A DNA stretch of 64,000 bases from Haematococcus lacustris. Its lineage: Eukaryota; Chlorophyta; Chlorophyceae; Chlamydomonadales; Haematococcaceae. Made by a program: the position numbers and the translations under genes. Where the stretch lies: positions 1,567,457 to 1,631,456 of the forward strand of contig JASKMD010000009.1 of NCBI GenBank assembly GCA_030144725.1. Direction: 5' to 3'. The notes beneath the pieces are model-generated. The model was not told the DNA's origin, made no database searches, and saw only the letters and a program-made list of their open reading frames with translations. Positions 88 to 64,000 of the stretch are shown in pieces (position 1 is the stretch's first letter; the number at the start of each line of letters is the position of its first letter).

Positions 88-159
88 GGGGGTTTGGTCT
101 AGTGGTATGATTCTCCCTTCGGGTGGGAGAGGTCGCGAGTTCGATTCCCGCAACCCCCC
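88..159 (+). tRNA. tRNA-Pro, anticodon CGG
   Basis: A 72-nt cloverleaf can be drawn. The acceptor stem GGGGGTT pairs with AACCCCC. The D-arm region reads GGTCTAGTGGTATGA. The anticodon arm is CTCCC / GGGAG with loop TTCGGGT, giving anticodon CGG for proline codon CCG. The T arm carries the internal promoter-like GTTCGATTCC (B box), with one A-C mismatch in its stem. There is no intron and CCA is not encoded, as expected for a nuclear tRNA gene. A T-rich run (TTTTTT) about 20 nt downstream could serve as a Pol III terminator. The sequence closely resembles known plant tRNA-Pro genes. Confidence 0.93.
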
Positions 160-30343: not shown

Positions 30344-33300
30344 ATGGTGCAGCGAATACTACTACCACGAGTTGCTTCCACCATGGACAGTGGCCCCACA
30401 GGCAGAAAGCGCGTCCAGCACGGGAGCGTGGGGAACGCGCTGGTGCCATTTTACGATGATTTCAGCACTTTAGTCCACTCAGCCTCGAACAGCGGTCCTA
30501 TCACCACAATTGCGTATGGATTGGAACGATGGAAAAGCGAATTGCGCAGCGAGGCTCGTCAGAGGCTGGGAGGATTTCAGCCGCCCCTGCCTATCAGCAA
30601 CGGGCTACTCGCTGGCGCAGACTTGGAGCTGCTGGCCAGGGTTGCCACAACCAATAACCGGCTTGTGTCAGGGTTCGGGAACTCCATGAAGCGTAGCGCA
30701 AGCGAGAACAGCTTAGAACAGCTTGGCGGTGTCCTACAAAACAGAAGATTTGCACGGAAGCCCTGGGTCTGGGATGAAAGCGACACAGATGCAGCACCCT
30801 CGCCACAACAGCCATCCACTCTCTCTTCCGGCCCCCAGCAACAGCTCAGCTTGGTGCCCCTCATACCCTTTGGGCGGGGCCTGCCACGTGTGGCCACAGC
30901 CCCTCTGCTCCAGGAGCTAGGGGACACCTTCAACAACAATGCTCTGCGCAACTTTGAGGCAGTCCGGCTGGCCCTACAAAACGCGCAGTTGAGCATCCAG
31001 CAGACTGCCGTGAATTGCCAGCAAAACCTTCAGACCTTGTCCAACCTATTCCAGCAGAGCATGCCCAGCAGTGGCAGCCCCCTCCAGACAGCCCTGTCCA
31101 GCTCCAAGGCCATGGTCACCTGGTCCATTGCCAACAGTGGGGATCCTGTGGGTGGCGCCCTGGTGCCATGGCAGGTGTTTCCTCGCTACATGCGGGCCAG
31201 GGAGCTTGACGCCCAGCAGGGAGCCCTCACTCTCACCAGTGGAGTGGCCCAGGCAGACAGCGAAGAGCACAGCAGCAGCAAAGGTGGAGGGGGTGTGATG
31301 GATTGGGTGACCCCATTGGAGAACTATGTCGCCCAGCTGGATGCCAAGCGGCTGCGCAAGCGGGCAGGCGGCAGCATCAGGGACCCTGGGCGCCAGGTGG
31401 CCATCGTCACTACCGCCTCCCTCCCCTGGCTGACTGGCACGGCAGTGAACCCCCTGCTGAGAGCAGCCTACCTGGCCACCGACGTGCAGCGCAAGGTCAC
31501 GCTGGTGCTGCCCTGGCTGTCTCTGGCGGACCAGCAGCGAGTGTTCCCAAACAACCTGCAGTTTGACACGCCTGAGCAGCAGGAGGAGTATGTCAGGGAC
31601 TGGGCACGCAAGCGCACGGGGCTGGACTGCAACTTCAAGGTCACGTTCTACCCCAGTAGATATGCTGCTGAGAAAGGTGCGCAGGAAGCTGCCATGCCAT
31701 GCCAGCTACCCGTTTGGTGGAAGCGCAGAGGGCAAGCACCCAGCTGCAACCAGTGCGTCATGCTGTGCCCCACCCTCCCATGCAGCAGCACCTGCCCAGC
31801 ATCATGTGCACAGCTGGCAGAGTGGCATCCAGCATGGACGACATGTGAGCGAAGAGCTGGCACCGCCATGCATGCCACTCTGCCATGTTGATGGTCATCT
31901 GTCATGACACACACACACACACATGTGTCCTCCACCCACCGCAATGGCGCAGGCAGCATCCTGCCGGTTGGAGACATCACGTCCGTCATCCCCGACCATG
32001 AGGCGGATGTGGCCGTGTTGGAGGAGCCCGAGCACCTGAACTGGTACCATCACGGGGCCCGTTGGACCGACAAGTTCAACCATGTGGTGGGCGTGATGCA
32101 CACCAACTACCTTGACTACGCTCGGCGTGAAGACAACGGCAACATGAAGGAGGCTGTTCTCAGGCAGGTTGGCTGCTGGAGGCTGTGGGACGTAGAGCTA
32201 CACAGGAACTCGCTGGGGCAGCACTGGGTTCCACAGCAGCAGCAAATGCGCCCTGTCTACATGCATGCATGCAGCCCTCCGTTGCTGTGCTGTTGTTTGC
32301 CAGGTGCTGGGGTGCTGGGCAGGGGTGGTGGTGTGCAGTAAGGGGTGCGTGCAGTGCTGGGTTAAGGGGCATGTGTGGCACACCCCTGCCAGGCTGTCTT
32401 CCCTCTTACTGGCCCGCTGCCCTGGCTGTGCTGTCACAGGCACATCAACGCCTGGGTGTGCCGCATCCACTGCCACAAGGTCATCAAGCTGTCAGACGCC
32501 GTGCAGCCCCTGCCCCGCGAGGACACCATGTTTGTGCACGGCGTGTCCCCCGCCTTCCTAAAAGTGGGCCAGGCCAAGGCAGCCGCTGCTGCCGCTGCTG
32601 CAGTGCCTGCGTCAGCCAACCCCACACCACCCACAGCACCCCTCCAGCCTGCCCAGCAGCAGCAGCAGCAGGCGCTGCCGCCCCAGGCTCAGCAGCAGGG
32701 TGAGGGGTCCTCCATGTCAGTGTTCGGCAAGGGCGTGTACTTCCTGGGCAAGGTGCTGTGGGCCAAGGGCTACACTGAGCTGCTGGATCGCTTGAATGAG
32801 CACACGGCACGGACAGGGGAGCATGTGGCAGTGGACGTGTACGGCAGTGGGCCGGACCTCAAGGTGAGGCTGGGCCAGGCTGGGCTGGGCTGGCAGGCTG
32901 CTTCCTGAGGCCGCTTGTGAGTGCATTTGAGGTGCTGGCTGGGCAGCTGGGAAAGGGACAAGCAGCAGATCTGCTAGAGAAGGCCAGGGAGGGATAGGAA
33001 CAAACCCTACGCCAGTAGGGCTGCATTGCAAGCGTCACAGGCATGTGGCGGTAGCATCAGGACCAATTACAGCACATAACCACAATCAGCACCACAATCA
33101 GCCCCCACTGTCACGTTGCCAGCCGCAGTGAGCTGTTGGCACATGCCATGTGGTCATGATGCTGGACACAACCGACAAGCTCGACATCATTCACTGCAGC
33201 CCATGCTGCTTGCGGCCTTCTAGCATACCTACAGAAATGCTTGAGGGTTGGCACAGCTGTGCAGCTGCTTAGTGAGTCCGCAGTCACCCTTGCCGTCAGC

Positions 33301-34602
33301 CTTGAGCCTTGGCTGCCGGGTGATGCTGGCGCAGGCTGTGGAGGAGGAGGCAGCACGCCGGCGGCTGGACCTGCACTTCCATGGTGCCAAGGATCACGCT
33401 GACAGCCAGCTGCAGGACTACAAGGTGGGCCTTACCTAGGGTAAGGGATGGGAGCAGGCAGTGGGTCAGGCAACAGCTCCTCCCCGCTCCCAGCTCTGCC
33501 CCAGTAGACTTCTTCTTCTCCTTTCACAAGGTCAGCTACCCACATGCTGCTAGCCGCCCCCGGCTGAGCTGTGTCGCCTTGGTACACAAAAAGGTACTTT
33601 TAGAACCTCAGTGTCCTGGAACTGCCTTGGAAAGGCTTTGGATCTGCTTTGGAGGCGCTCTGCTTGCCCAGTAGCCCTGATTCCTGAAACCAACACTGAC
33701 CTGCGGGTCCCAGGTGTTCATCAACCCCAGCCTCAGTGACGTGGTGGCCACCACCACTGCTGAGGCGCTGGCCATGGGCAAGTGGGTGGTGTGCGCTGAC
33801 CACCCCTCCAACGCCTTCTTCAAACGCTACAACAACTGCCTCATATACAGGTCCGTGGTGGTGGTTGCTCCCATGAGCGCATGCAGCATTCATGGCTGCA
33901 GCCCGGTGCCGTCCATGAACACTGGCTAGGTGGAGCGTGCTCTAGAGTTTGACCCTGACCTCAGCCACAGGTGCAGGTGGCTGGTTTAGATCCTGGGAGA
34001 CCAGCAATGGCTGTGCATACAGTGTGTATTCAGTCAGCACTGGTTGCTCTGTACGTTAGTGTGAACAATGCCAGGCCGCATGGCTGAAGGTATGCTGCGT
34101 GCCTGAGAGAACACCGACGAGCAAGGCAGCTTATCTGCCGCCGCCCCTGCTGCTGCTGCCCCGCTCGACCTGCAGGAACAGCGAGGAGTTCAGCCGCTGC
34201 CTGCACCGGGCCCTGCAGGAGGACCCCCGGCCCCTGTCCTCTGAGGAGCTGCACTCCCTCACCTGGGAGGCCGCCACCGAGCGCTTCCTGGACGTGGCCG
34301 ACTCCCTGCCCCGCAGCAACGCCCTTGAGACGGGGCTAGACAGCCTCCTGCACGCCGCTCACAACACGCTTGTAGGGGTGGAGTTCTTCAGGGTGGCTAT
34401 GGGTGCTGGGTCGCACACACGGGACGCCCCAGCCAGGATCACTGACTATGTGCCGTGCGAGAACGATGTGGGTGGGTTTTTTGACGACAGCGCAAGGGTG
34501 AAGAAGAGCTGGGAGGGCAAGGCCAAGCCTGCGGGCCGCAGGGGCGCTGCAGGCAGCAAGGGCGTGCTGCCCCAGGTGCCGGAAAAGCAGGCGGTGGCTT
34601 AG
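30344..34602 (+). CDS. Digalactosyldiacylglycerol synthase, DGD1 type
   Basis: Six exons join in frame to 873 residues: 30344-31676, 31953-32163, 32440-32863, 33335-33424, 33714-33850 and 34176-34602. The enzyme transfers galactose from UDP-galactose to monogalactosyldiacylglycerol, making the thylakoid lipid DGDG at the chloroplast envelope. Seen: the N-terminal extension typical of DGD1; the start of the catalytic domain [33 protein letters not shown] [57 protein letters not shown]; and the donor-sugar site of a GT4 fold, [25 protein letters not shown]. An Ala/Gln-rich insert in exon 3 interrupts HGVSPAFL...KGVYFLG, which makes it longer than the ~800-residue plant enzyme. The ATG at 30344 is the first usable one. 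Intron 2 has a GC donor at 32164. A TGTAA lies at 35184. Confidence 0.96.
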
Positions 34603-48200: not shown

Positions 48201-49500
48201 AGTTCGCAGGGTCGGTACCAGCTGGTTACTCACCGCCGGATGTTGAGCGCCTGCAGAACAGCAGAGCCGTACACGAGCACTCCCAGTCGAATTAGGGTAG
48301 CGCTGCTTGCGGCAGTGCACAATGCAGTGTTAAACCCGGTAGTCGAGCTGGGCAGGGCTGGAAGGTGCTGCTCAAATGCTCACCGCATTGATGTCGCTGT
48401 CCACCCACTTGCTTCACCGTCGCTGTCCCAAGTGTTGGGGAGGCAGTGGCTGGCGCTGACCGCCGCCTGCCGCCTGCCGCCTGCCGCCTGCCGCTGTATA
48501 GCCGGAACCTCTAGTTGACCCAGCGTGGCGTGAGGCTCTCCTTCCACATGGACTCACACACCTCCAGCTCAGGCGCCCCCAACATTCAAAAAATGGCAGT
48601 AAACCGACCCCTGGTAGTAGGACGGCTGTAACTCTGCACTCGCTGCGCCAAATTTAATGCTAGCTGGCTCAGTGTGTAGCCAACCCAGCCAGCTACCTTT
48701 CACCCATCCAGAATAATTATCCAGTCAGTAGGCCGTGCACAGCAAAGCATCAAAGTTAGTAATTCAAATTTGAGCCGGTTCGGGGCATGCAGTCATCGCT
48801 GCGACCACCCGCGCCGCTTAGGTTGCTCTACACGAGCATGCGCATCGGCAGAAGCAGTCGGATCGGAAAACGGTTGCGGGAATGTGGCTCGAAGGCGGTT
48901 GGCAGGTGGTTGGGGGAGGTGGCCGGTACAGCCTTTGTTGCGCACTTTACAACCTGAGTTGGCGTTGGGGGGCTGTCTAACTAAGTCTAACTAACTGAGT
49001 CCAGCAAGGCCTTAAGGTGCCTCAAGGCCTTCCCAGCATGTGCCCTTGGGCTGGCCTTGGCCAAGGCGGCCAACTGTTGCTTGATGTTGCCCTCCTGTCA
49101 GGTCTGAGTCTGCTTCTTGAGGCGCTAATGCCACCGTCATGGTAGTGTTCAATTGGGCTTTGACATCAAGCCCAACCGAAATGGCAAAGCAAACGGAATA
49201 AATCGTTCGTAACACAACACAGCATCGGTGCCCTTCGGAGTGAAAAGGGCTACGTGACAGATGCTGCGCCGTCATATCGCGCCATCGTTATAAAAAAAAG
49301 GCATGCAGCCCGCGGCTCTACAGTGTCCATCAACAGGCCCCGGGCACGCCAGCAGCGTCTGGAAGCAGCGTCGACTGCCACACAGCTCCCGGGCGCCATG
49401 TGCAGCCTGGCCTCCTGGTGCGTCCCTAGTCCCTTGCCCATCACGTTGCTCCCTTTGCTCCACTTTACCACTTTACCACGTCAGCAGCCGTGGGAAGGTT
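48201..49500. other. Intergenic region, no supported gene
   Basis: No protein-like exons on either strand. Contains a CCGCCTG heptamer run (48466-48495). Possible promoter elements could not be distinguished. Confidence 0.45.
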
Positions 49501-49507
49501 GAGGGCA

Positions 49508-49830
49508 AGGTTGAGGGCAGGGGCAGGGGCAGGGGCAGGGGCAGGGGCAGGGGCAGGGGCAGGGGCAGGGGCAGGGGCAGGGGCAGGGGCAGGGGCAGGG
49601 GCAGGGGCAGGGGCAGGGGCAGGGGCAGGGGCAGGGGCAGGGGCAGGGGCAGGGGCAGGGGCAGGGGCAGGGGCAGGGGCAGGGGCAGGGGCAGGGGCAG
49701 GGGCAGGGGCAGGGGCAGGGGCAGGGGCAGGGGCAGGGGCAGGGGCAGGGGCAGGGGCAGGGGCAGGGGCAGGGGCAGGGGCAGGGGCAGGGGCAGGGGC
49801 AGGGGCAGGGGCAGGGGCAGGGGCAGGGGC
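49508..49830. repeat. (GGGGCA)n hexanucleotide array, about 53 copies
   Basis: Near-perfect six-base repeat of about 320 bp. Because 6 is a multiple of 3, every frame on both strands is open and gives Gly-Arg, Gly-Ala or Pro-Ala dipeptide artefact ORFs. The G-rich strand may form G-quadruplexes. Confidence 0.97.
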
Positions 49831-50525
49831 CATTATGGTGAGAAGCTCCGGAGGCAGAGGCGGTAATCATAGGATGAAGCCAGGATCAAGCTTCAGATGG
49901 CCGTTCTACAACCTAAGAACTCTCAGCACAATCCACCGACCAGGACTGTGACAGCAATGACTGGCACTGCATGCACCACTACCATGTGCTGTTGCCTGGC
50001 TCCCCACAAGCCGATGCACAACCACGCTGCACCACCCTGATCTTTCCACCCTGATCTTTCTTGAATCAGCGGTCATGCAGCCGCTTGCAGCCCATGCCAC
50101 TCCAGCCTAGCCCAGCCCAGCCTGCCCAGCCCAGGCCAGTTGTTACACCTGGCGGCAGATCCGGGCAAGCAAGCCACCAGTGCAGCCACAGCAGGTCCCA
50201 CTTGTTCTATTGCTATTAGTCTAGCGACTGCATTGCAGTCATGGCCACTTGGCTGGCTGCGGTGTTGGGATAGCTGGTTTGGCAGCCTTGCCGTTGGGCT
50301 GGCCTCGCCCAGTCTTGATGGGCATGTCTAGATGGAGTAGTGCTCTGTCCAGTCCTTGACTTTCATCTGGTTCTGAACGGGCTCTGCCCTGGCCTGGCCC
50401 AGCTCGGTTGGCTTGGCTGCCCAGGTGGTCTGTGCCTATGGTCAGAAGCTGCAGTTACAGAGGCGTTCTTCTTATCTTCTTTTTCTTATTCCTCCTCCTC
50501 CTCCTCCTCCTCCTCCTCCTCCTCC

Positions 50526-50557
<32 letters not shown>

Positions 50558-50938
50558 TACAGAGGCTGCTGCTGGGGCTGTGGGCAAGTGCAGCAGGCAG
50601 CGTGCTTGCGCTCAGGCCCCACCTGGCAAGCACAGCTGGGTGTGTTGGTTGAGGTGGGGTGCAGCCGGCAATGGTGGGCTAGTGAGTAGGCACAGAGGTC
50701 TGCACAGGCAGGCTACGAGGGATGCCTGGCGATGAGGTGCCTTGGGTCACTCCAGGCTCTGGCGGCAAACTGGGCACCCACCCGGGCACCTGACTGGGCG
50801 CCTAACCGTGTGCCTAATCAGGCGCTTCATTGAGAGCCTGATTGGGCGCCTTATTGGGTATCTGAAGTGCACGATTAAAACTGTCCAGTTACGCTCCTCA
50901 GGAGAATAGTTCTTTCTTTCTCTCAGTCGTGTCTGTTT
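49831..50938. other. Upstream region of the giant modular gene
   Basis: No supported exon. It includes a (CTC)n run (about 50490-50551) and a polypyrimidine tract TTTCTTTCTCTCAG ending 12 bases before the ATG at 50939, which may be an intron acceptor in the 5' untranslated region. Confidence 0.45.
50490..50551. repeat. (CTC)n microsatellite
   Basis: About twenty uninterrupted CTC units. Confidence 0.95.
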
Positions 50939-53038
50939 ATGGCTGCTGGCACCACCTTGCGCTTCATGCTCCTGCTCGCTCCCACTGCAGGCGGATGCCC
51001 CCCGGCAAGCCCCCCAACACCCAGCCGACCCAGCCGTCAGGCCAGCAGGGCAGGCAGCAGCCGGCCCCCCCGCTCCTTGCCAGCCTCCACCACGCCCACC
51101 GCCGCTACCAGCAGCACTCCGGAGACTGAGCCTGTGCAGGGTGCAGCAGGCGGTGCAGGCAGGCCTGCAGGGCACCCATACTCAGATGACAGCAACACAG
51201 CGCTGGCAGGGCATGTGCCAGCCGTTGCCCGCAACATAGGGCTGGAGATGGGTAAGCCAGCAGTTGGCAGCGACCCGGGACAAGAGGGTGGGGTGCCTGC
51301 AGCTGCAAGCGACACAGGTCCGGTACGGCATGGGTTGGCAGCTGGCAGCGAGATAGGGCGCGAGGGGCTGGAGCCTGCAGAAGCTACCGGGAAGCTGGCA
51401 GTGCATGGGCTGGCTGCTGGCAGTGCTGCTGCAGAGGAAGGTCTGGGGGACCCAGCTGCTGCTGGCAGCCTGACTGGGCCAGAGCAGGCAGCTGGCAATG
51501 GCATCCAGCAGACAAGCTCAACCACAGCTGGCAACCTGGCTGTGCTGCAGACAACCTTGAACACAACAGCCTTGGACACAACAGCCTTGGACACAGCCCA
51601 ACTGCCAGGGCCAGCCCAACTGCCAGGGCCAGCCCAACTGCCAGGTCCTGATCAGGCCTTGGACACAACCTTGGACAAAGCCCTGGCAGCAGCGTCCGCC
51701 ACCCTACCAGGGACATACCAGTCCCCTGGGGCGCTGCCTCCCCTCAGCCAGGCTAGCAGGTCTGGCCCCACCCTGCCTGCTGCTCCCCCTGCACCCCTGC
51801 CTCACCCCAGCATGCCTGCACCCAGCTGGCCTGTGCCCACAACTGCCAGACCCCCTCCTGGGCTGCTGCCACCCCTTAGCCCACTGACGGTCCCTTTGCC
51901 TGGCCTGCTCCAAGAACAAGCTGGCCTGGAGGCTGCAGCAGCTGGCAGTGCTCTTGGCTTGGAGGCTGCAGCAGCTGGCAGTGCAGTCAGCAGGGACGAG
52001 CTGGTCGTGCGAGCTGATCCAAGTACTCAGCCGAGCTCTGCACAAGGCGAGAGCAGTGGGCTAAATGTTGGTGAGGTGAAAGGGCTGATGACAAACAGCA
52101 GCAGCAAGCTATCTAGCCAGGCACAGCAGCTGACCAACAGACCAGGTTCTGCTCCCAGCAGTGCCGCCTGACGCGTGGCATATGGCATACGACCAGGCAG
52201 AAGAAGGGCTGCAGCTGCTTATGTTGTTGTCCTCTCCATTTTGAGAAAACTCACGAACCGTTTTATGTGCCCGTAAAACCAGATTATCAGTAGGTATGGA
52301 TATGATCTAAGAGCTTACAACCCTGCAGTTATTGCTATCTCCAGGGATTGTGCACGCATGTTGTTGTCGCTGTTGGTTCACACCAATGAGCAGCCAGCCT
52401 GGTGTGATTGCTGAGTTGTGATGGGGTGAGGAATGTAGCGGCGCGAGGCGGGGCGCGGCGTTGTTCTAGATTGCTGTGTTGGTTCCCACCCCTGACCCGC
52501 CAGCCTGGCAGTGGTGCTGGGTTGTGATTTTGGTGGTGGCTGTGGGTGATGGTGAAGGTGGGGTGGCCATGGGGTAGGGTGGGGTGGGGTGCCCCAGGAC
52601 TAGCCTCCTGGCCGCCTGCCATGGCAAATCGCTAGAGTCGGATTCACAGTGCAAGCCATAATCAATGCCCATGCCACTGCTGCCCTGATGCCACCGCTGC
52701 TGCCACCACTGCTGCCCCTGATGCCTGCGCCTACACCTGCAGCTGTCACCCACTGCCCCATGACTTCATCACCAGCAGCAGAGGAAGGAGAGTGGGAGAA
52801 GGGGGAGGAGGAGGAGGAGGAGGAGGAGGAGGAGGTGGTTGAGGAGGAGGAGGTGGTGACAAAGTCAGCAGCGCTGCCAGCCACATCTTCCCAGGCCCTG
52901 GTTACAGCAGGTACAGGAGCCCTGCCATCAGCCCCTCACCTCTCACTGCCTTCAGCCCCTCCCCTCTCACTGCCTGCAGCAGCAGAGGTGGAGGCAGCAC
53001 TAACACCAGCATCACCACCAGCAGCAGCAGCATTAAGC

Positions 53039-53098
<60 letters not shown>

Positions 53099-56000
53099 GG
53101 GGGACCTTCCACCCCCACAGCAGAAGCAGCTGGGCCTGCAGCCTGTGGTCAGTTCGCTGTGTTAGGCAGCGAGGTAACGCCACCAAGCAGCTCCCTGCCC
53201 CCTGCAGCTGCAGCCCTCGCCCCTGAAGGCCCCCTGCTCCTTACTTCACCTACCCCCCTTGCATTAGACATGAACCCTGACCCTGGGGACCAGCTGGAGG
53301 CCATCGCTGAGGAAGGCAGTGTCCAGCCTGCCCTGCCAGGTCAGCTGCTGCTGTTGGTGGAGGAGGGGGAGCCAGGGTGGGGCCCAGGAGGTGTTCAAGG
53401 AGGGCCAGGGTGGGGTTAGGGTCTGGGTTTGTGATGCCACCCAGCCAGGCACAGGAGCTAGAGGCTGGTTGCTGAAGCGTGAGGGGGAGGTGGCCTGAAG
53501 GCGAGGCCTGTCCAGCTGTGAGTGTGCGCACACAATTCAGCTGTGGTGAGGTGTAGCTGCTGGTGGGTAGGCCTTTCAGGCCATGTACCATTTGTTGAAC
53601 GCGCCCTTCCCCTCCTTGTACTAAGACCATAGTCTATGCTGAGTTGCTGGAGTGTCCCCCTACCTGCACACCAGCACCAGCACAAGTGTGACTCCATGTC
53701 CCTCCTTGCAGGCAATGAGGGAGGTGCAGGGCCAGGCCCCGGTGCTCCCCCCGCCCGTCTCACACTGCAACACCCCTCAGCTCCTGACGACCCAGCTCAT
53801 GACCCCCCCATGGTGGGGCTGGCACCCAGGCCCCTCCTCTTCCCCCCAGCAGCAGGAACCCCCATGCTGGCACTGCAGCCAGGCTCTACCCAGGCAGCTG
53901 CCCCAGCAGCACTGCTGGTCCTGGGCCAGGCTGATGGCTCCGGCACCTTAGGCACGGCAGCACTGGGCACCCAGCCAGCAGCTGCCCCTCAGGCCTCCCA
54001 CCCTCCAGCTGGTGACGACCTGCTCGGGGCTGATGCAGCTGCAGTCCAGGGGCAGGCCGGCAGCACCCAGGCCGCTGATGCTGTGGATCACACCCAAGGG
54101 CTGGCGCTGGCACCGGAGCACACAGCAGCAGGGGTGCCTCAGCAGGAGTTTGGTCTCCAGCCTGTACCTGTACCAGCATCTGGTACTGCACTCAACACCG
54201 TCCCATCCCGGCCAGTGAAGAAGGATGTCAAGCCAGGAGGCCCGAAGCAAGCGCAAGTGATGTTCAGGCGGGCTTGGCTCGGAGGTGGACGCAGGAGGGA
54301 GGGGGAAGAGGAAGAGGAAGGCGAGCAGGAGGAGGAGGAGGAGGCAGACGATGCGGGGGAGGAAGATGAGGATGAGTTTTCTTACGAGATTGATGACGAC
54401 GAGTGGGAGGAGGAGTACGAGGAAGAGGTGGACGAGGGATGGCGAACGAATTGGTCCGATCGCGATGATGATGAGGTCGAGGAGGACGATGATGAGGTGT
54501 TGAAACAGGCGCACAAGCACATCAAGCCTCACCTGCAACGCTTCATTCACGCAGCTTCCCTGCAGCTACTGTCAGCGCAGTCCTGCCTCGTGCGCGCTTC
54601 GTACTGCGATTCCTTTGAAGCAACGCAAGCGGAGCTGCAGGCCGCGGGCGACGCATTAGCAGCGCTACGGACTGGTGCCACTGACTTGGCTCTCAACGTG
54701 CTCACCCCTCCACCAGGCTCGTCAGAGTTGGACGACGAACAGCCGCCACCGCCCAAGCTGCAAGCCAAGGCAGGGCTGCAAGGCGTGAAGGGCGATGCTG
54801 TGACCGAGCAGCAGCTGGAGCAGCGATGGGCGGCTGCGTTCTGGCGCGACGGGGGCGTGCGAACGAGTGTGAAGGCGGCTGTGGAACTGGCACGGAGAGG
54901 GGTCCGCAGCCTTGAGGAGGAGATTGGCCCAGAGTTGCGCTTGGCCTTGGACGAGGTCGTGACGGACGTGCAGAAGCACGAGCGTGCCATCGCCTCCCTG
55001 ATGGCCTCAATAGCAACGCTCCCAGCGGATGGCCTGCTGCGGGTTCGCGAGAAGGTGACAGAAGGCAGTGGCGCGCCGTACACCACCGCGCTGAAAGCCG
55101 TCGAAGACGGGTATCGGCAGTACGAGGCGCAAGTTGCTGCAAGCACAGCAGCAGAGGCGGCCAACCTAAAGGTTGTCGCCGCAAATGAAGCTGCGAAGGC
55201 GCACTACTTAGAAGCAAAGAAGGTTGCGAAGAAGAAAGAGGCAGCGTACCTCCTGGATCTACGGGATGGTGCCACACCTCGCAAGGGGGACAAAGAGCAC
55301 GCGAGGAAGATGTTTAGGCCCTCCCCGCCATCTCTCGACAAAGGTGTGCCAGTACCGCCTATGCCGGCTCGATTGACGCGGCTGAAGCTCCAACAAGACA
55401 TTGTCGTGTCAGCCGATGCATGCCAGAATGCGCTGTTCCTTTACTTGTGGAAGGCTCACCCGCATGTTGTCGCGTTGCTGGACCACACGCCCTCCGCGAC
55501 ACCCGCGGCCCCAGCGACGCCCGCACCTCCCGCGACGCCCGCACCTCCCGCGACGCCCGCACCCGAAGCGACGCCCGCACCCCCCGTGACTCCCGTGGAC
55601 CCTGCGCTGCCGCACCCCCAGCACAGCGTGCGCGCGATTCTGCAGGCGCTGAGCAAAGCGCTGGCTGACGTGCAGTCCGTGGCTGTCGAAGCTGAGGCGA
55701 GCTGCCAGCTTGTATGGCGTACATTTTGGGATGAGGGGACCAGTAGCATGCTAAAGGGCCTCTCAAGAGAGCTCAGCTTCTCATCAGCCCCCGGCAAACA
55801 ACCATCAAGGCGTCAGAACAGTGACCCAGCCCGGCCCTGGGAGCTAGCTGCTACCCCCAACTGCACCGTTACCGTTGCCAGCTCAGACCCAGCTACCAGC
55901 CTCCGTGCCTGCCAGCAGCGGTTGAGGGAGGCTGCCGTGTGTCTCACTCAGAGCTTGGGTGGTGGGGCGGCGGTGTGGAGCACCCTCTCTGCGTGGCAAG

Positions 56001-56306
56001 TGGTCCCAGCCAGTCAACGTGGTGCGCAGCGCGTGCACTCGCTACTGCATCGGGCCATGGCTGAGGCTGCCAGCGTGCGGCAGTGCGCGGCCTGGGTGCT
56101 GGAGGCTGTGCAGCAGGCGGAGGCTGCGCATGCAAAGGGTCTGGAGGGCGAGCCTGGTGGCAGCGTGGGCGTGGGGGTGGAGGCGGAGGCTGCTGGGGTG
56201 CAGGGGACACCCAGGGAGGGGAAGAGGGAGGCAATAGCAGCAGCAGCAGCACCAACAGCAGCAGCAGCAGCAGCAGCAGCAGTACCAGCAGCAGCAGCAG
56301 AACCAA

Positions 56307-56341
<35 letters not shown>

Positions 56342-59300
56342 CCAATACCACCAGCTGCTGTGGCCACACCAGCCACCGTGGCCTCTGCCACCACCGCAGC
56401 AACCACTGAGGCGGCTGCGCACATGGCAGACACACCTGATGATGATGTCGACCCTGATGGTGAGCTGCGATCAGCAGCTGAGCTCCTCAACCCCTGGCTG
56501 TTTGCCCTCTTCCTTTGACCACTGCGGGTAACTCTAGTCGTTGTGGTAGGCCTGCAGGAGGCAGGTGAGTGCCCTCAGTAATCCCAGGTGCTGCCATCAT
56601 GCCCCATGGATGCTAGCCACTGCTGACCATGGATGCTAGCCACTGCTGGCTGCAGCTTCTGGGTATGGCCTGGCCGGGGAGGAGGGCAGCAACAGGCTTT
56701 CCCTTGGTTTTGGCATCAGCCCCTCCCTCAGCTGGTAGACGTTGCTGTCTGCAGGCCGTGGCTCCACTGTGGCTCCACCTCAGGCTGCAGCACAGCCTGC
56801 TGGGGGCGGCACCGCTGTGGCACCAGACCTCCCTGCTGCTGCTAATGAAGGTGAGGGTCAGCAGCATTGTCAGGCAGGACTGGTGCACAGTCACGAGCAT
56901 AGCAATACACCAGCCTGCCTGTTAACTAATGCTCCTTGTGTTCAATGGATTCGTGCTATCATTGTATGCACTGTGATGTTACCAGCCTGCCCGTCGTTAC
57001 CAGCCTGCCCGTCGGTACCAGCCTGCCTGTCGTTACCAGCCTGCCTATCGTTTGACGCTCCCAGTGTTCAGTGGATCATTGCTATCATTGTATGCACCAG
57101 TGATCTATATTTGCGTAGTACGTAATGATCAGTACGATGTTACATGACCGGTTTTCATGACTAGACGGACCATAGCTTTGGGTGCTTGCAGCTGTATTGT
57201 AACCTAAAAAGCTGAAGACATTATGAAACAAGCAACCAGCCAGGTGATGGGCTAGGATGCTGAGTGGTAAACGTTAGCTTGACAGTCAAAAAGACAGCAG
57301 CAGCAACGTGAGGTTGCACCGAAATCAGAAGCCTGCCGACCTCCTTTTGTTTGTGTCAGCTGGCAGCTTGTGTCACTGTGGCAGAGTAAGAAAGACAGAA
57401 ACTCCACACCACAATGGTCATTGAGGCACATGTAACAATAGGGTTGGTGGGCCCAACTCCCTGTACAAGGCTTGCATGAGCAGCATCATTGTTGTCATCA
57501 ACCTTGTATCAATAGGGTCTCTGGGCCAAGCTCTGGCGACCAGCACTGACTTGGCGAGCTGCCAGCACACTGTCTCAGGTCTGTATCAGAAGCAGCATTG
57601 CTGTCAAATGGCATGCGCTTTTTGAGCTTGCTACAAAGACAAACAATTTTAGAAACAACGTTGAGGCTCACTTGATAAGAGCACGCCATGCCTCACGCTC
57701 CTGCCACATGGCTAGGCGCTGGTGACTACCAGTGTTTTTCTTTTCGCACTGTATATAGCGTTCGCTATGAAATGCCATGTTTTACTGGCGTTTTGCGCTA
57801 TGCGTTCGTCATTAACAGTCTAGCCACCTAACAATTCGTAATGCCCACCAACCTATGGCAGACTCAGAGCGGCAGCGCCGTTGGGGGTTGGTTGTGGTAA
57901 TGGTTTGGCGGTGGCGAGAAGGGTGGTTGTGTGGACTCCTATGGCGCGTACCCAGCAATACTGCATAGTGCTTGCATGGTGGACATGGGCTTCTGGATTC
58001 ATTGGGTTTGGCAGCTGACGGCTGGGTGGCCCTGCTTCAACAGTCTGGTTGAGTCACCAACACATTGTATCGGTGTGGTACGCAGGATTGTGTAGACCTC
58101 GTTGTTGCCATTGTTACCAAGATCGCCATACATTACTCTTGCACCCAATCTTGTGCCCCTGTCATCATGCAACACCGTGTTACCCCGGCTCCTGTTTGCA
58201 TCGTGCCACACAAGCAGATGACGTGGCGGTCGGCCACGAAGTTGATGAGAAAGACAACGAGGAGTGGAAGGAGCACGCCAGGCCTTGTCTGCAACGCTTT
58301 GCTTATGAGGCTTCTCTACACTTGCTGGCCGCCCAGGCGAGCGAGGCGAAGGCGACATCGGCCATCACCCCGGCTGAAGCTGCAGCTGAGCTTCAGTCTG
58401 TGCACACAGCCCTGGCAGAGCTGCGGCGCTGTGCCGCCGTCCTGGTCGCCAGTGCGTTCAAACCCCCATCTAGCGCAACCGCGCTGTACAAGGAGGCGTT
58501 GTGCGCGGAGCCACTCCCACCTTCGCCGCTTCCGCCTTTGCAAGGTGAAGAGCCTTCCGTGCCACAGTCGGGACACGGTTCAGGACGGTGGACGCGAGCG
58601 GAGTCTCTCAGGGCCGAGCAGCGACTGGGACAGCAGTGGGCAACGGTGCTGGCGCAAGCCGTCGGCATGCGTATCACAGTGATGGAAGCGGTGGACCGAG
58701 CTTTGAGCGAGGCAGGCAATCTTGACGATCTGGACGGGTTGCTTATGCGCAAAGCCCTGGACAATGCCACAACGCAAGTGATGCAGCACGAGCGCAGCGT
58801 TGCCTGGCTGCTGGCAGCGCTGCCCACGGTCCCAGCAGAGGGCGTCAAGCGGGTCCAAAATGAGTTGTCGGACCGGGTCGTGGAGCCAGGCGCCACCGCG
58901 CTGCAGACCGTCATCGCCGCGATTTACGAGATTGCAGCAGATACAAAGCAGAAACCGCCGAAGTACATGGTGCCATTGGAGATCCAGCGGACGGTCATCG
59001 TGGCAGCTTGCGAACCTCAGTGTGTACTGCATCTCTACCTACAGAGCGCCCACTCACATGCTGTTTCGCTGCTCTCGCGCTTGCAGCCTTTCCCCCTCGC
59101 ACCAAACCCCACAGCCCCAGCGACTCTCGCTTCCCTGCCCACCTTGTGCGCCGACCTTCGCGGCCTACGCGCGGCGCTGGCAGCCGTGGAGGACGCGACC
59201 TTCCCTGCTGAGTCGCGCTGCACCAGTGTTTGGCCCATGTCTCAGGCGATAATCAGAGACAGCTACGCAGGGAAGTATCCGAGTAAATATATGAGTAACC

Positions 59301-62300
59301 TCGTGTACCGTGACTTGGCAGCTATGACAGCCGCCCCAGAGCTGCCCTGGGCGCTGCCACAACTGGCAGCCGCAGCTGTGTCACACATTGGGGAGGCCCC
59401 GACCAGCTCTGATGCCGCCATGACCAGCCTGCACACCTGCCAGCTGTGCCTAGGCGCCATTGTGATCAGGCTTGCACAGCTTGCAGGCACAGGCGGTGCA
59501 GTGAAACAGCTCCAGTCGTGGCGTGGCGTTGCCCGAATGTCCAGAGGCCAGTGGCTGGAGCACTCGGAGGCATTGGTGCAGCAGGCAGTCCAGGAGCTCG
59601 TCAGCCTGCGCCTGTGGACCTCCTCGTTGCGTGGTGTGGTGGATCAGGTTGAGCAAACCCTTCACATGGCAGCCTCAGCGGCACAGGGTGCAGGCACGGG
59701 GGGGGCACAGGGGGCTCCGTTGGGGGAGGATGTGGTGGGAGGGCAGGGGGCGGCGGGGGGCCAGGAGCAGGGGGCGGAGCAGGGATCTGTAGTCAGGCAG
59801 CTGGGCTTGGGCACCACCACTGCCTCCACCATTGTGACAGAGGTCAGCAACCAGGTTGTGGAGGGGAAGGGCGAGGGAGATGGAGGAGGAGTGGAGCAAG
59901 GGAGGTCGACTGCCCCTCCCCTCCCCGCTGCCCCTGCTGCCCCCAGCTCTTCCCCTGCGCTGCACCCAGAGGGGGCTGGCCAGGTCACCGGTGGCGCTGA
60001 CAGCACAGGCAAGGAGGACGCTGGTGGAGTCGAAGTGCCAGGTAGGCATCAGGGACCACAGGGGCGGCAGGGTGGCAGGGTCAGGACTGCAGGCGGGCGA
60101 TCAGGGTGTCACTTCACACCTTCACACTTGCATAGGGCTTACACCAGCAGTATGTCACAAGAGTGTAATGTACGGTTGTGGTGACAGCCATCGTTGGCAT
60201 CCTGCTTGTGTATGTCACTAGCCCACCCACATAGCCATGGACATCTGCCCTTGATCACTTGGCTAGGTAGGCTGTCTTGCCTACAAGGGTTGCTCAGGGC
60301 ATAGGTCCAGGGGCCAAGGCGTAAACTGTAGTGCACTTGGCTAGATGAGGCTGGCTTGCCTACAAGGGTGGCTCAGGACATAGTGGCTCTAGTGGCTCTG
60401 CCGTGTTTTGGAGTACCCTGTGCCACTCAGGGAACAGGGGACTGAATCGTGGATAGCATGGGTGCCATGCGCAATGCACTGAAGAGCAGCCCATGGTTTC
60501 CACATGACACCCCTCAGTATGTGAGCACCTAGCTGGGTGAAATGTTGTCGTGGTAACATTTGTAGGTTTGTGTTAGGTCAATCGGTAGATTGCCACATGC
60601 ATACCGCATTGTCAGGGTATCTCGCTGACCCTATTGCTGTGGTACCTAATTGATGTAGGTCGTAGGTTTGTGGTGAGTGCATTGTAGTAGGTTGTAGTGA
60701 GCCTCGAAGCCTTTACTTTACCGGGTATTTATGTATGGTCACTAGCTTTGTTTGTGGTAGGTAGATTGTAGTAGGTTGTAGTGAGCCTCGAAGCCCTTAC
60801 TTTACCGGCGTTTACTTCTGAGGTGTGCTTGCACGTCTCTCCCTACCCTGGCTGCTCCTGAAAGAACCAGTGCCTCTCTTGCCTCTCTTGCAGGACCCCA
60901 CCTGCTGCTGCTTCCCCTTGCCACCAGCCAGCAGAGCCCAGCCCAGGCCAGCCCCCCTGGCCCACCCGGACACCCCTCCCCTCCAGGCCACCCCGCTGCA
61001 GATCTCAGCCGCAGCCCGCCTCTGGACTTGGCTCCTGCAGCCCCAGCCAGCCCTGATGCCACTGAACAGCCCGCTATGGCACTGACCAAGGCACCCACCC
61101 CTCACGCCCCTGACAGCCCCTCAGCCCCTGACGTCCCTGCCCATGACCCCCCCATGCTGGCACTGCAGCCAGGCCCTACCCAGGCAGCTGCCCCAGCAGC
61201 ACTGCTGGTCCTGGGCCAGGCTGATGACTCCGGCACCTTGGGCACGGCAGCACTGGGCACCCAGCCAGCAGGTGCCCCTGAGGCCTCTCACCCTCCAGCT
61301 GGTGACGACTTGCTCGGGGCTGATGCAGCTTCAGTCCAGGGTCAGGCCAATGCAGTCCAGGCCGCTGATGCTGTGGATCACACCCTGGGGCTGGCGCTGG
61401 CAGCGGTACACACAGCAGCAGGAGTTCCTCAGCAGGAGTTTGGTCTCCAGCCTGTACCTGTACCAGCATCTGGTACTGCACTCAACACCGTCCCATCCCG
61501 GCCAGTGAAGAAGGATGTCAAGCCAGGAGGCCCGAAGCAAGCGCAAGTGATGTTCAGGCGGGCTTGGCTCGGGGGTGGACGCAGGAGGGAGGAGGAAGAG
61601 GAAGAGGAAGGCGAGCAGGATAATGATGATGACGACGATGATGATGAGGAAGACGATGCTGGGGAGGAAGATGAGGATGCGTTTTCTTATGAGATTGATG
61701 ACGACGAGTGGGAGGAGGAGTACGAGGAAGAGGTGGACGAGGGATGGCGAACGAATTGGTCTGATCGCGATGATGATGAGGTCGATGAGGACGATGATGA
61801 GGTCGATGAGGACGATGATGAGGTGTTGAAACGGGCGCACAAGCACATCAAGCCTCACCTGCAACGCTTCGTTCACGCAGCTTCCCTGCAGCTACTGTCA
61901 GCGCAGTCCTGCCTCGTGCGCGCTCCATACTGCGACACCCTCGAATCAACGCAAGCGGTGCTGCAGGCCGCGGGCGACGCACTAGTAGCGCTGCGGGCTG
62001 GTGCCACTGACTTGGCTCTCAACGTGCTGACCCCTCCGCCAGAATCCTTAGAGACGGACGACGAACAGCCGCCGCCGCACAAGCTGCAGTCCAAGGTAGG
62101 GCTGCAGGACGTCAACGTCGGTGCTGTTACCGAGCAATATCTGGAGCAGCGATGGGCGGCTGCGTTCTGGCGCGACGGGGGCGTGCGAAGGAGTGTGAAG
62201 GCGGCTGTGGAACTGGCACGGAGAGGGGTCCGCAGCCTTGAGGAGGAGACTGGCCCAGAGTTGCGCTGGGCCTTGGACTCGGTCGTGGCGGACGTGCAGA

Positions 62301-63572
62301 AGCACGAGCGTGCCATCGCCTCCCTGATGGCCTCAACAGCCACGCTCCCAGCGGATGGCCTGCTGCGGGTTCGCGAGAAGGTGACAGAAGGCAGTGGCGC
62401 GCCGTACACCACCGCGCTGCAAGCCGTCGAAGACGGGTATCGGCAGTACGAGGCGCAACTTGCTGCAAGGACAGCAGCAGAGGCGGCCAACCTGGAGGTC
62501 GTCGCCGTTAACAAAGCTGCGAGGGCACGCTACTTAGAAGCAAAAAAGACTGCGAAGGAGAAAGAGGCAGCGTACCTCATAAAGCTGCGGGATGGTGCCA
62601 AACCTGGCAAGGGGGACAAGAAGCGCGCGAGAGAGCTATACAGGCCCTCCCCGCCGTCTTCCAAGAAAGTGGTGCCAGTACCGCCTATGCCTGCTCGAGT
62701 GGCGCCGCTGAAGCTCCAACAAGACATTGTCGTGTCAGCCGATGCATGCCAAAATGCGCTGCTCCTCTACTTGTGGAAGGCTCACCCGCATGTTGTCGCG
62801 TTGCTGGACCACACGCCCTCCGCGACACCCGCGGCCCCAGCGACGCCCGCACCTCCCACGACTCCCGCGACCCCCGAGCTGCTGCACCCCCAGCACAGCG
62901 TGCGCGCGATTCTGCAGGCGCTGAGCAAAGCGCTGGCTGACGTGCAGTCCGTGGCCGCCGAGGCTGAGGCGAGCTGCCAGCTCGTATGGCGTGCATTTTC
63001 TAACGAGGCAAGCTGGGGCATGCGGAAGAGCCTCACGAGCGAGCCCAATCAATCAAAGAATCAGCAAGGTGACCCAGCTTGGCCCTGGGAGGTTGCTGCT
63101 GTCCCCAAGCGCACAAACACCTTCGCCAGCTCAGACCCAGCGGCCAGCCTCCGTGCCTGCCAGCAGCGGTTGATCGCGGCTGCCGGGTGTTTTGCTCAGA
63201 GCTTGGGTGAAGGGGCGGCGGTGTGGAGCAAACTCTCTGAGTGGAAAGTGGTTCCAGTTGGGACAGGTGGGGCACAGCGCGTGCACTCGTTACTGCAGCG
63301 GGCCATGGCTGAGGCTGCCACCGTGCGCCAGTGCGCGGCCTGGATGCTGGAGGCTGTGGAGCAGGCGGAGGCAGCGCATGCAAAGGGCCTGGATGCCACG
63401 CCTGTTGGCAATCTGGGCGTGGGGGCGGAGGCGGAGGCTGCTGGGGTGGAGGGCACACCCAGTGAGGGAATAGCAGCAGCAGCAGCAGCTGCAGTGCCAC
63501 CAGCAGCACTAACAGCAGCAGCAGCAGCAGCAGCAGCAGTATCACCAGCAGCACCAGCAGCAGTACCACCAG

Positions 63573-63603
<31 letters not shown>

Positions 63604-64000
63604 GCCAGCAGCAGCAGTGGACCTAGCGGGCCTCACCCGCCCTGAGGCTACTGCGCCGGAGGCCGACAACGGGGCGGGTTCCAGGGAGCGAGAGGAAGGG
63701 CAGGATGGGGAGGAGGGGCAGGAGGGGGAAGAGGAGGTGGAGGAGGAGGAGGAGGAGGGGCAGGAGGAAGAGACTGAGGAGAAGGGGGAAGCGGAGGTGG
63801 AGGAGGGGGAGGAGGAGGAGGGGCAGGAGGAGGAGAGTGAGCGTCCACAGTCCAGCAGCCCTCCCCTTGACACCAAGCTGGCCGTGGTGCTCTCTCCCTT
63901 CTTTGCCTCCAGCCACTGTGACTCACCCTCAGCCAGCATCCAGGCAGAGAGGGCCAGCCCTGCCCCACCACCATCACTCACCCTGCCTACTGGCAATGCT
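50939..64000 (+). CDS. Giant modular protein with repeated helical module (3' end outside window)
   Basis: Exons 50939-52070, 52650-53339, 53712-56459, 56755-56850, 58218-60041 and 60894-beyond 64000 connect through five introns, all in phase 1, giving about 3,200 codons so far. Every fully internal exon is a multiple of three: 690, 2748, 96 and 1824 bases. The N-terminus MAAGTTLRFMLLLAPTAGG could be a signal peptide. Exons 1 and 2 are Ala/Gly/Pro-rich, with LPGPAQ repeats, a poly-Glu run and a poly-Ala run. Exons 3, 5 and 6 each hold one copy of a ~550-600-residue helical module. I recognise no known domain. Acidic and Ala/Pro linkers suggest an extended, possibly extracellular or scaffold protein, which is inference. 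In-frame stops at 52169 and 56516 fall in the predicted introns, just past donors GTGAGG (52071) and GTGAGC (56460). If those donors are wrong, these are three tandem paralogous genes instead. Confidence 0.72.
52650..53339 (+). other. Low-complexity exon of the giant gene
   Basis: 230 codons. A poly-Glu run (about 52805-52855) and a 20-plus-residue poly-Ala run coded by GCA (about 53038-53097) lie between Pro/Ser/Ala-rich stretches. Flanked by acceptor ATTCACAG and donor CAG/GTCAGC, both phase 1. Confidence 0.6.
54241..56459 (+). other. Module A of the giant gene (within exon 53712-56459)
   Basis: Order: a basic start (KKDVKPGGPKQAQVMFRRAW), a Glu/Asp-rich stretch with FSYEIDDDEWEEEYEEE, helix KHIKPHLQRFIHAASLQLLSAQ, a helical middle (LEQRWAAAFWRDGGVR, VQKHERAIASLMASIATLPA, LLRVREKVTEGSGAPYTTALKAVEDGYRQYEAQ), a Lys/Ala coiled-coil-like stretch, LQQDIVVSADACQNALFLYLWKAHPHVVALL, a (APATP)n linker, QHSVRAILQALSKALADVQ, then SLRACQQRLREAAVCL and a poly-Ala tail. 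No catalytic motif seen. Confidence 0.75.
56985..57050 (+). repeat. 18-bp intronic tandem repeat
   Basis: Four units of TACCAGCCTGCCCGTCGT-like sequence, flanked by a duplicated ATTGTATGCAC-containing segment (about 56960 and 57090), in the intron between the 96-base exon and module B. Confidence 0.85.
58218..60041 (+). other. Module B of the giant gene (exon 58218-60041)
   Basis: A diverged copy of the same module filling one exon. Corresponding landmarks: EHARPCLQRFAYEASLHLLAAQ, LGQQWATVLAQAVGMR, VMQHERSVAWLLAALPTVPA, VKRVQNELSDRVVEPGATALQTVIAAIYEI, CVLHLYLQSAHSHAVSLLSRL, LRGLRAALAAVEDATFPAE, SLHTCQLCLGAIVIRLAQL. It lacks the long acidic N-terminal tract and has only a short linker. Confidence 0.75.
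60665..60810 (+). repeat. Tandem duplication in the intron before module C
   Basis: GTAGTAGGTTGTAGTGAGCC and the following CTCGAAGCC(T/C)TTACTTTACCGG occur at about 60686 and 60776, some 90 bp apart. An earlier pair (CACTTGGCTAG..., GCCTACAAGGGT...) at about 60256 and 60333 shows a second local duplication. Confidence 0.85.
61531..64000 (+). other. Module C of the giant gene (within the exon starting at 60894)
   Basis: Very close copy of module A, with a nearly constant offset of about 7.29 kb from 53.86/61.15 kb onward. It carries additional (DEDDDEV) repeats in the acidic part and a shorter APATP linker. After the final helices it continues through poly-Ala into a new Glu/Gly-rich tract (EEGQEEE...). 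The exon is open to the end of the window. Confidence 0.8.

Follow-up and report, generated by a model that had tools for sequence, protein, structure and literature searches.

Many extracellular modular proteins are encoded by phase-1 symmetrical exons. In giant modular proteins built from class 1-1 exons, phase-1 introns and exon lengths in multiples of three accompany repeated units; algal pherophorins and hydroxyproline-rich wall proteins carry Pro/Ala-rich spacers; and scaffolds of the ARM, HEAT, TPR and spectrin kinds set all-helical units in tandem. Here we describe a giant gene with points of likeness to all three groups from Haematococcus lacustris, which PMC7617258 presents as an alga grown for astaxanthin. 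The gene model is well supported, and the module from which the product would be built is unnamed in the libraries that we searched. The paralogues at three loci also provide a test of how alternating arrays grow, swap blocks and stay in frame.

A predicted ten-exon gene at three loci

The window, by which we mean the whole 64,000-nt stretch analysed, is C542:1567457-1631456 in a 307.9-Mb H. lacustris assembly of 597 contigs, and its numbering is carried on downstream for positions beyond 64000. We find the giant gene at three loci in this assembly, each with modules ordered A1-B1-A2-B2-A3 (3/3 loci). Locus 1 is the window plus ~8 kb past its end, locus 2 lies at C542:350-368 kb on the opposite strand, and locus 3 is on the 35-kb contig C253, also on the opposite strand, where it stops at the contig end after A3. 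The three loci hold 16 module copies, 15 of which are open; the exception is an extra, broken B copy at C253:7860-9610 in locus 3. A genome search with module B returned 23 matches, 22 of them within the three loci and the last a piece at C542:5196822-5197394 with four stops, a census that rests on the B query and may miss further A-type copies elsewhere. PMC7617258 reports a size of 151 Mb for a different assembly of the species, which is diploid, so both haplotypes may be present for some regions of the assembly used here. As loci 1 and 2 share contig C542, they cannot be allelic to each other, and the dS of locus 3 against them (0.085-0.18 for A1 and A2) looks too large for an allele of either.

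The window also contains a tRNA gene at its start (88-159, forward strand) and, ~20 kb from the giant gene, a gene for the digalactosyldiacylglycerol synthase DGD1 (30344-34599, forward strand), whose exons match H. lacustris QJQ45_020851, the first at 99.5% identity. An array of a short G-rich unit (GGGGCA) at 49482-49895, upstream of the giant gene, is matched in loci 2 and 3.

A giant multi-exon gene had been proposed from the window alone, and comparison of the three loci supports it: an anatomy of at least ten exons, nine phase-1 introns and five modules is very probable. All exons are on the forward strand of the window numbering. E1 (50939-52070) is Pro/Ala/Gly-rich, with an ATG at 50939 in 3/3 loci and the donor GTGAGG at 52071; a pyrimidine-rich CAG ending at 50926 in loci 1 and 2 (CAA in locus 3) could be an acceptor upstream of it. 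E2 (52743-53339, 597 nt) encodes acidic and poly-Ala tracts, and E3 (53712-56459, 2748 nt) a Pro/Ala linker, an acidic stretch, module A1 and an Ala-rich tail. The 96-nt E4 (56755-56850) is followed by E5 (58218-60041, 1824 nt), with module B1 and a linker, and by E6 (60894-64142), whose window part ends at 64000 and which holds a linker, an acidic stretch, module A2 and a tail. Beyond the window come E7 (64510-64890), the acceptor of which is one among many possible, E8 (65239-65334, 96 nt, a copy of E4 in the second unit), E9 (66109-67983) and E10 (68834-71782). The five introns and four complete internal exons first read in the window recur in the final model with the same counts, the five introns all in phase 1 and the exons (E2 to E5, phase 1-1) all multiples of three; over the whole model, 9/9 introns are phase 1 and the internal exons remain multiples of three. 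Joining E1-E10 gives an uninterrupted frame of 4,982 aa at locus 1 and 5,090 aa at locus 2 that has still not met a stop where E10 ends, so the product, originally put at more than 3,100 residues, would be larger, at least 4,982 aa, with the array continuing past the window. At locus 3 every exon but E9 is open; the interval of E9 contains both B copies and has 12 stops if read straight through. As a control, DGD1 has a phase-1 first junction, a second in phase 0 or phase 2 according to which annotated protein is taken, a third and fourth in phase 0, and a fifth that is not cleanly solved, its best candidates being phase 0.

All 57 exon borders (30 donors and 27 acceptors, or 10 and 9 per locus) carry a GT or AG. 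Taken alone this conservation is modest evidence, since at ~6% divergence our arithmetic predicts only 4-5 chance changes in these dinucleotides of loci 2 and 3. Reading frame is more telling. Each of the ten exons has equal length modulo three across the three loci, and indels between loci are mostly multiples of three in exons E1-E6 (23/28, 31/33 and 25/27 for the three locus pairs), in contrast to introns I1-I5 (5/22, 9/31 and 11/30). This difference gives Fisher p values of 4e-5, 6e-8 and 2e-5, the three pairs not being independent; the exon borders used for the count differ from those of the final model by at most 10 nt. In E2, counted over 52733-53339, 5/5 indels are multiples of three in every pair.

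Further downstream, a poly-Q-containing ORF at 73289-75140 runs uninterrupted at loci 1 and 2, whose DNA alignment here shows a single 3-nt indel; the contig of locus 3 ends before this position. The ORF has matches at six places on C542 (near 334, 348, 1641, 1655, 5194 and 5217 kb), and at four places it lies downstream of an A3-type module: loci 1 and 2, ~1,652-1,655 kb and ~5,194-5,197 kb, the A3-type pieces at the latter two being partial or broken. The 10 kb examined near 5,217 kb, which covered 2.9 kb upstream, contained no match to a module. This ORF probably supplies the giant gene's C-terminal part.

Two module types and possible exchange of blocks

Translated stretches A (54203-56515), B (58220-60040) and C (61502-64000) were compared, with 50.9-64 kb read in all frames. 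The three module copies announced for the window are real: A and C are 76% identical across 682 aa; A and B match at 33% identity across 228 aa (E 7e-25) and, in a further block, at 30% across 272 aa; and B and C match at 32% across 214 aa. Repetition goes beyond chance, because the layout recurs at two more loci and 15/16 copies are open. These comparisons support A and B as two diverged types of one module of ~460-550 residues. Pairwise similarity and dN/dS between loci were used for module A1 (type A, 54500..56140), module B1 (type B, 58271..59668) and module A2 (the former C, 61826..63388), all on the forward strand, with AlphaFold models added for A1 and B1.

An EGWRTNW motif lies in the acidic stretch preceding module A1 (54434..54454, forward strand) and again ahead of module A2 (61739..61759, forward strand). 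In the form EGWxTxW it occurs in the acidic stretch upstream of 13 of the 16 module copies, being missing from B1 of locus 1 and from A1 of loci 2 and 3; at B1 of locus 1, 132 nt of acidic sequence are absent in frame and present in loci 2 and 3. A DNA pattern somewhat stricter than the motif has 11 matches in the 308-Mb assembly, all within the three loci, and its reversed control has none. The Ala/Pro linkers between modules are repeat-rich and vary in length.

Predicted phase-1 introns flank the module exons at both ends, as in class 1-1 exons, and the original prediction noted that such symmetrical exons can be duplicated with no loss of frame. For A1 and A2 the borders of the duplicate do not lie in introns. 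Their DNA similarity (53773-56363 against 61117-63620) has both ends inside exons, with an upstream limit at 53773 and a downstream limit at an Ala run near 56363, so that this copy was not delimited by symmetrical exons. The 96-nt exon of the first unit has a copy in the second, as do its flanking introns, among them the long one ahead of B. In the second unit the tail of the A exon stands behind an intron as the separate exon E7, and in the first it is fused into E3 at the Ala run; the first unit may have lost that intron by recombination between runs of CAG type.

Exchange between copies appears to have continued. Over 69250-70750, the A3 stretch of locus 1 is 16-28% different from loci 2 and 3, with 2-5% difference in the same comparison at the flanks (69.0-69.25 and 71.5-72.0 kb), which suggests conversion or replacement of the module. 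The variable blocks of the broken B copy in locus 3 mix the type of B1 with the type of B2 of locus 1. In locus 3, the intron that follows E6 and the one that precedes E9 carry two ~160-nt insertions in opposite orientation, with inverted ends. The aligned introns of the other two loci lack these insertions, which resemble small non-autonomous transposons.

Selection, family searches and fold

Within the window, A1 against A2 (A against C) gives an omega of ~0.8, a value as low as this arising in 12% of simulations and thus not distinguishable from neutral. This window-internal test being uninformative, we used dN/dS between loci, over 15/16 copies with the broken B excluded. A1 (0.35-0.44) and A2 (0.42-0.45) are constrained (Z -2.35 to -4.87), and values are higher for B1 (0.61-0.71), B2 (0.62-0.82) and A3 (0.58-0.82), for which |Z| is below 1.96 in 6/9 between-locus pairs. 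Linker parts range from 0.41 to 3.1. Values outside the modules are 0.79-0.89 for E1, 0.50-1.11 for E2, 0.78-3.08 for the E3 tail, 0.20-2.6 for E4 (over 31 codons), 0.41-0.67 for E6 outside the module and 0.48-0.56 for E7. On these values parts of the protein, E1 among them, are hardly constrained. Between A1 and A2, 6.3 stops would be expected under neutrality and none is seen (P 0.001), an absence that argues for both being coding. A codon-preference profile was trained on the modules themselves and is illustrative only.

The module had been called unrecognised, and within the libraries searched (Pfam, NCBIfam and PDB) it is. Pfam gave no match above cut-off for five window ORFs, and nothing above cut-off for four downstream ORFs and two parts of the 3' ORF. 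Among 14/16 module copies (all except A2 of locus 2 and the broken B), only three families appeared, at E 0.056-0.19 and each in 2-3 members of this set, and we judge these hits below cut-off to be chance. The same holds for the best NCBIfam score, RcGTA_tape at 18 bits against a cut-off of 220, and for PDB sequence matches at E 0.29-2.2, none better than 0.29. No ARM, HEAT, TPR or spectrin profile matched, and none of these is among the weak Pfam hits of the 14 copies. A pyrenoid-linker motif was looked for and not found. Protein searches gave no match at E <= 0.01 for module A (residues 285-850 of a 961-aa ORF) and none at E <= 1 for module C (residues 345-678 of a 1,072-aa ORF). Both considered the 8,000 candidates sharing most words, with lengths of ~528-1,682 aa for A and ~590-1,876 aa for C, and a full-length model of this gene could therefore not appear; the case shows what length-limited protein searches can miss. 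Algae of this kind are represented in the protein database, since in a control search with a DGD1 exon the 120 matches listed, out of 1,398, included Haematococcus lacustris, Tetrabaena, Gonium, Pleodorina and Volvox. Among the titles listed by literature searches none concerned this gene, which is not proof of its being unpublished.

Two further claims stand in part. The module was described as helical, and both AlphaFold models, from runs on three window sequences, are all-helical, and their helices follow one another in much the same way in A and B; at pLDDT 45 and 43 and pTM 0.24 and 0.30, respectively, their confidence is too low to call a fold. Comparing four blocks of the module with one another by hhalign gave no similarity and thus no internal repeat. 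The module was also proposed as an undescribed protein family, which is likely and is not proved by homologue searches limited in length and shared words.

A putative scaffold and its rivals

The most economical reading of this anatomy is a multivalent scaffold inside the cell. The modules would be helical bundles in a row held by flexible linkers, an arrangement from which the protein might act as a scaffold or tether; each module, or each acidic EGWxTxW segment, could bind one partner, and the length of the array would set spacing and avidity. The A-B alternation could have come from tandem duplication of a unit of A exon, 96-nt exon and B exon, with conversion between copies still reshuffling blocks. 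For locus 1, the predicted product has a net charge of ~-341, and a simple hydropathy scan of it, skipping very Ala-rich stretches, shows nothing like a membrane span. The anatomy hints weakly at the scaffold mechanism, which we propose tentatively, and for the statement as a whole, gene and scaffold together, we put the probability at roughly 0.45.

Two readings would dissolve the gene itself. The array might be a row of separate smaller genes, with E1 ending at 52169, an A1 gene running from the ATG at 53696 to 56516, and B1, A2 and the rest as others. Both stops are in frame: the TGA at 52169..52171 (forward strand) would end E1 if intron 1 were unspliced, and the TGA at 56516..56518 (forward strand) lies 56 nt past the donor at 56460. 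The 52169 stop, the ATG at 53696 and, at its position in the first unit, the 56516 stop are each present in 3/3 loci, and the 52169 stop for that reason gives no comparative verdict. However, the 56516 segment exists in six copies, two at each locus: the donor GTGAGC is kept in 6/6, and the stop is lost in one, the second unit of locus 2, which retains its donor. The first in-frame ATG of E5 lies ~150 residues into module B1 and a 1-nt indel at 58194 closes the frame upstream, so B1, like E4, which also has no in-frame start upstream, must be an internal exon; and the ATG of E2 at 52760 is ACG in locus 2, so that E2 there needs an upstream exon. The lost stop, the startless E5 and the lost E2 ATG favour one spliced gene, all borders fit a single phase-1 chain, and separate genes are very unlikely. 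It is more improbable still that the region is a functionless remnant of a decaying repeat or mobile element. Such decay would fit the weak selection on B, A3 and E1, the broken B of locus 3 and two further sites with A3-like pieces that are broken or partial, but it is hard to square with a frame open over ~15 kb at two loci, with indels that keep the frame, with dN/dS of 0.35-0.45 for A1 and A2 and with the missing stops between them. Nor does B have a relative in phage records, and a narrow scan of viral and prokaryote contigs, using a pair of short peptide patterns drawn from an alignment of three sequences, found none.

Two others keep the gene and change its role. That it encodes a secreted or cell-wall matrix protein is rather unlikely: the Pro/Ala-rich linkers and the uniform phase 1 would suit it, as would the possible signal peptide originally read at its start, but that peptide is not supported, its best 11-residue mean hydropathy being a weak 1.52 in a short hydrophobic run that P and R break in locus 3 and that follows a start which is not certain. 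Long acidic tracts also speak against it, and neither a pherophorin nor any other extracellular Pfam domain was found in the parts scanned, namely five window ORFs, four downstream ORFs and 14 module copies. The bolder reading, a diversifying recognition protein in which hypervariable blocks of the B modules pass between copies and loci, is distinctly unlikely, yet has data behind it. Amino-acid-variable columns cluster in the six open B copies (shuffle p 0.0044); pN is at least pS in 12/46 overlapping 20-column windows, most strongly at 121-150 and 331-360; and alternative blocks occur in mosaic combinations, the broken copy included. Replacement and silent variable codons number 8 and 0 at columns 121-140, 15 and 1 at 331-350 and 24 and 10 at 401-440, against 105 and 80 of 363 outside the variable blocks. 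Against this, dN/dS of whole modules is below 1, windows and blocks were picked after inspecting the data from six sequences, conversion tracts can mimic the pattern, and in A pN reaches pS in only 3/55 windows. The fuller version, a lineage-specific giant protein on whose multivalent helical array B surface blocks swapped among copies and loci would form a recognition repertoire, is a still longer shot; if true, the repertoire would offer recognition surfaces for mating, self/non-self or defence.

The intracellular scaffold remains the reading that we prefer, and it shares traits with each of the systems with which we began. With pherophorins and hydroxyproline-rich wall proteins the predicted product has in common Pro/Ala-rich spacers and a green-algal setting; it differs in its long acidic tracts, its lack of a Pfam match in the parts scanned and its unconvincing signal peptide. 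Like ARM, HEAT, TPR and spectrin scaffolds it is predicted to be all-helical, in low-confidence models, and arranged in tandem, whereas it matches none of their profiles and its four module blocks show no similarity to one another. In comparison with giant class 1-1 proteins, the modules here match no searched domain and the A1/A2 copy limits are not at introns, yet the gene is like them in its phase-1 introns (9/9), its multiple-of-three exons and its repeated units.
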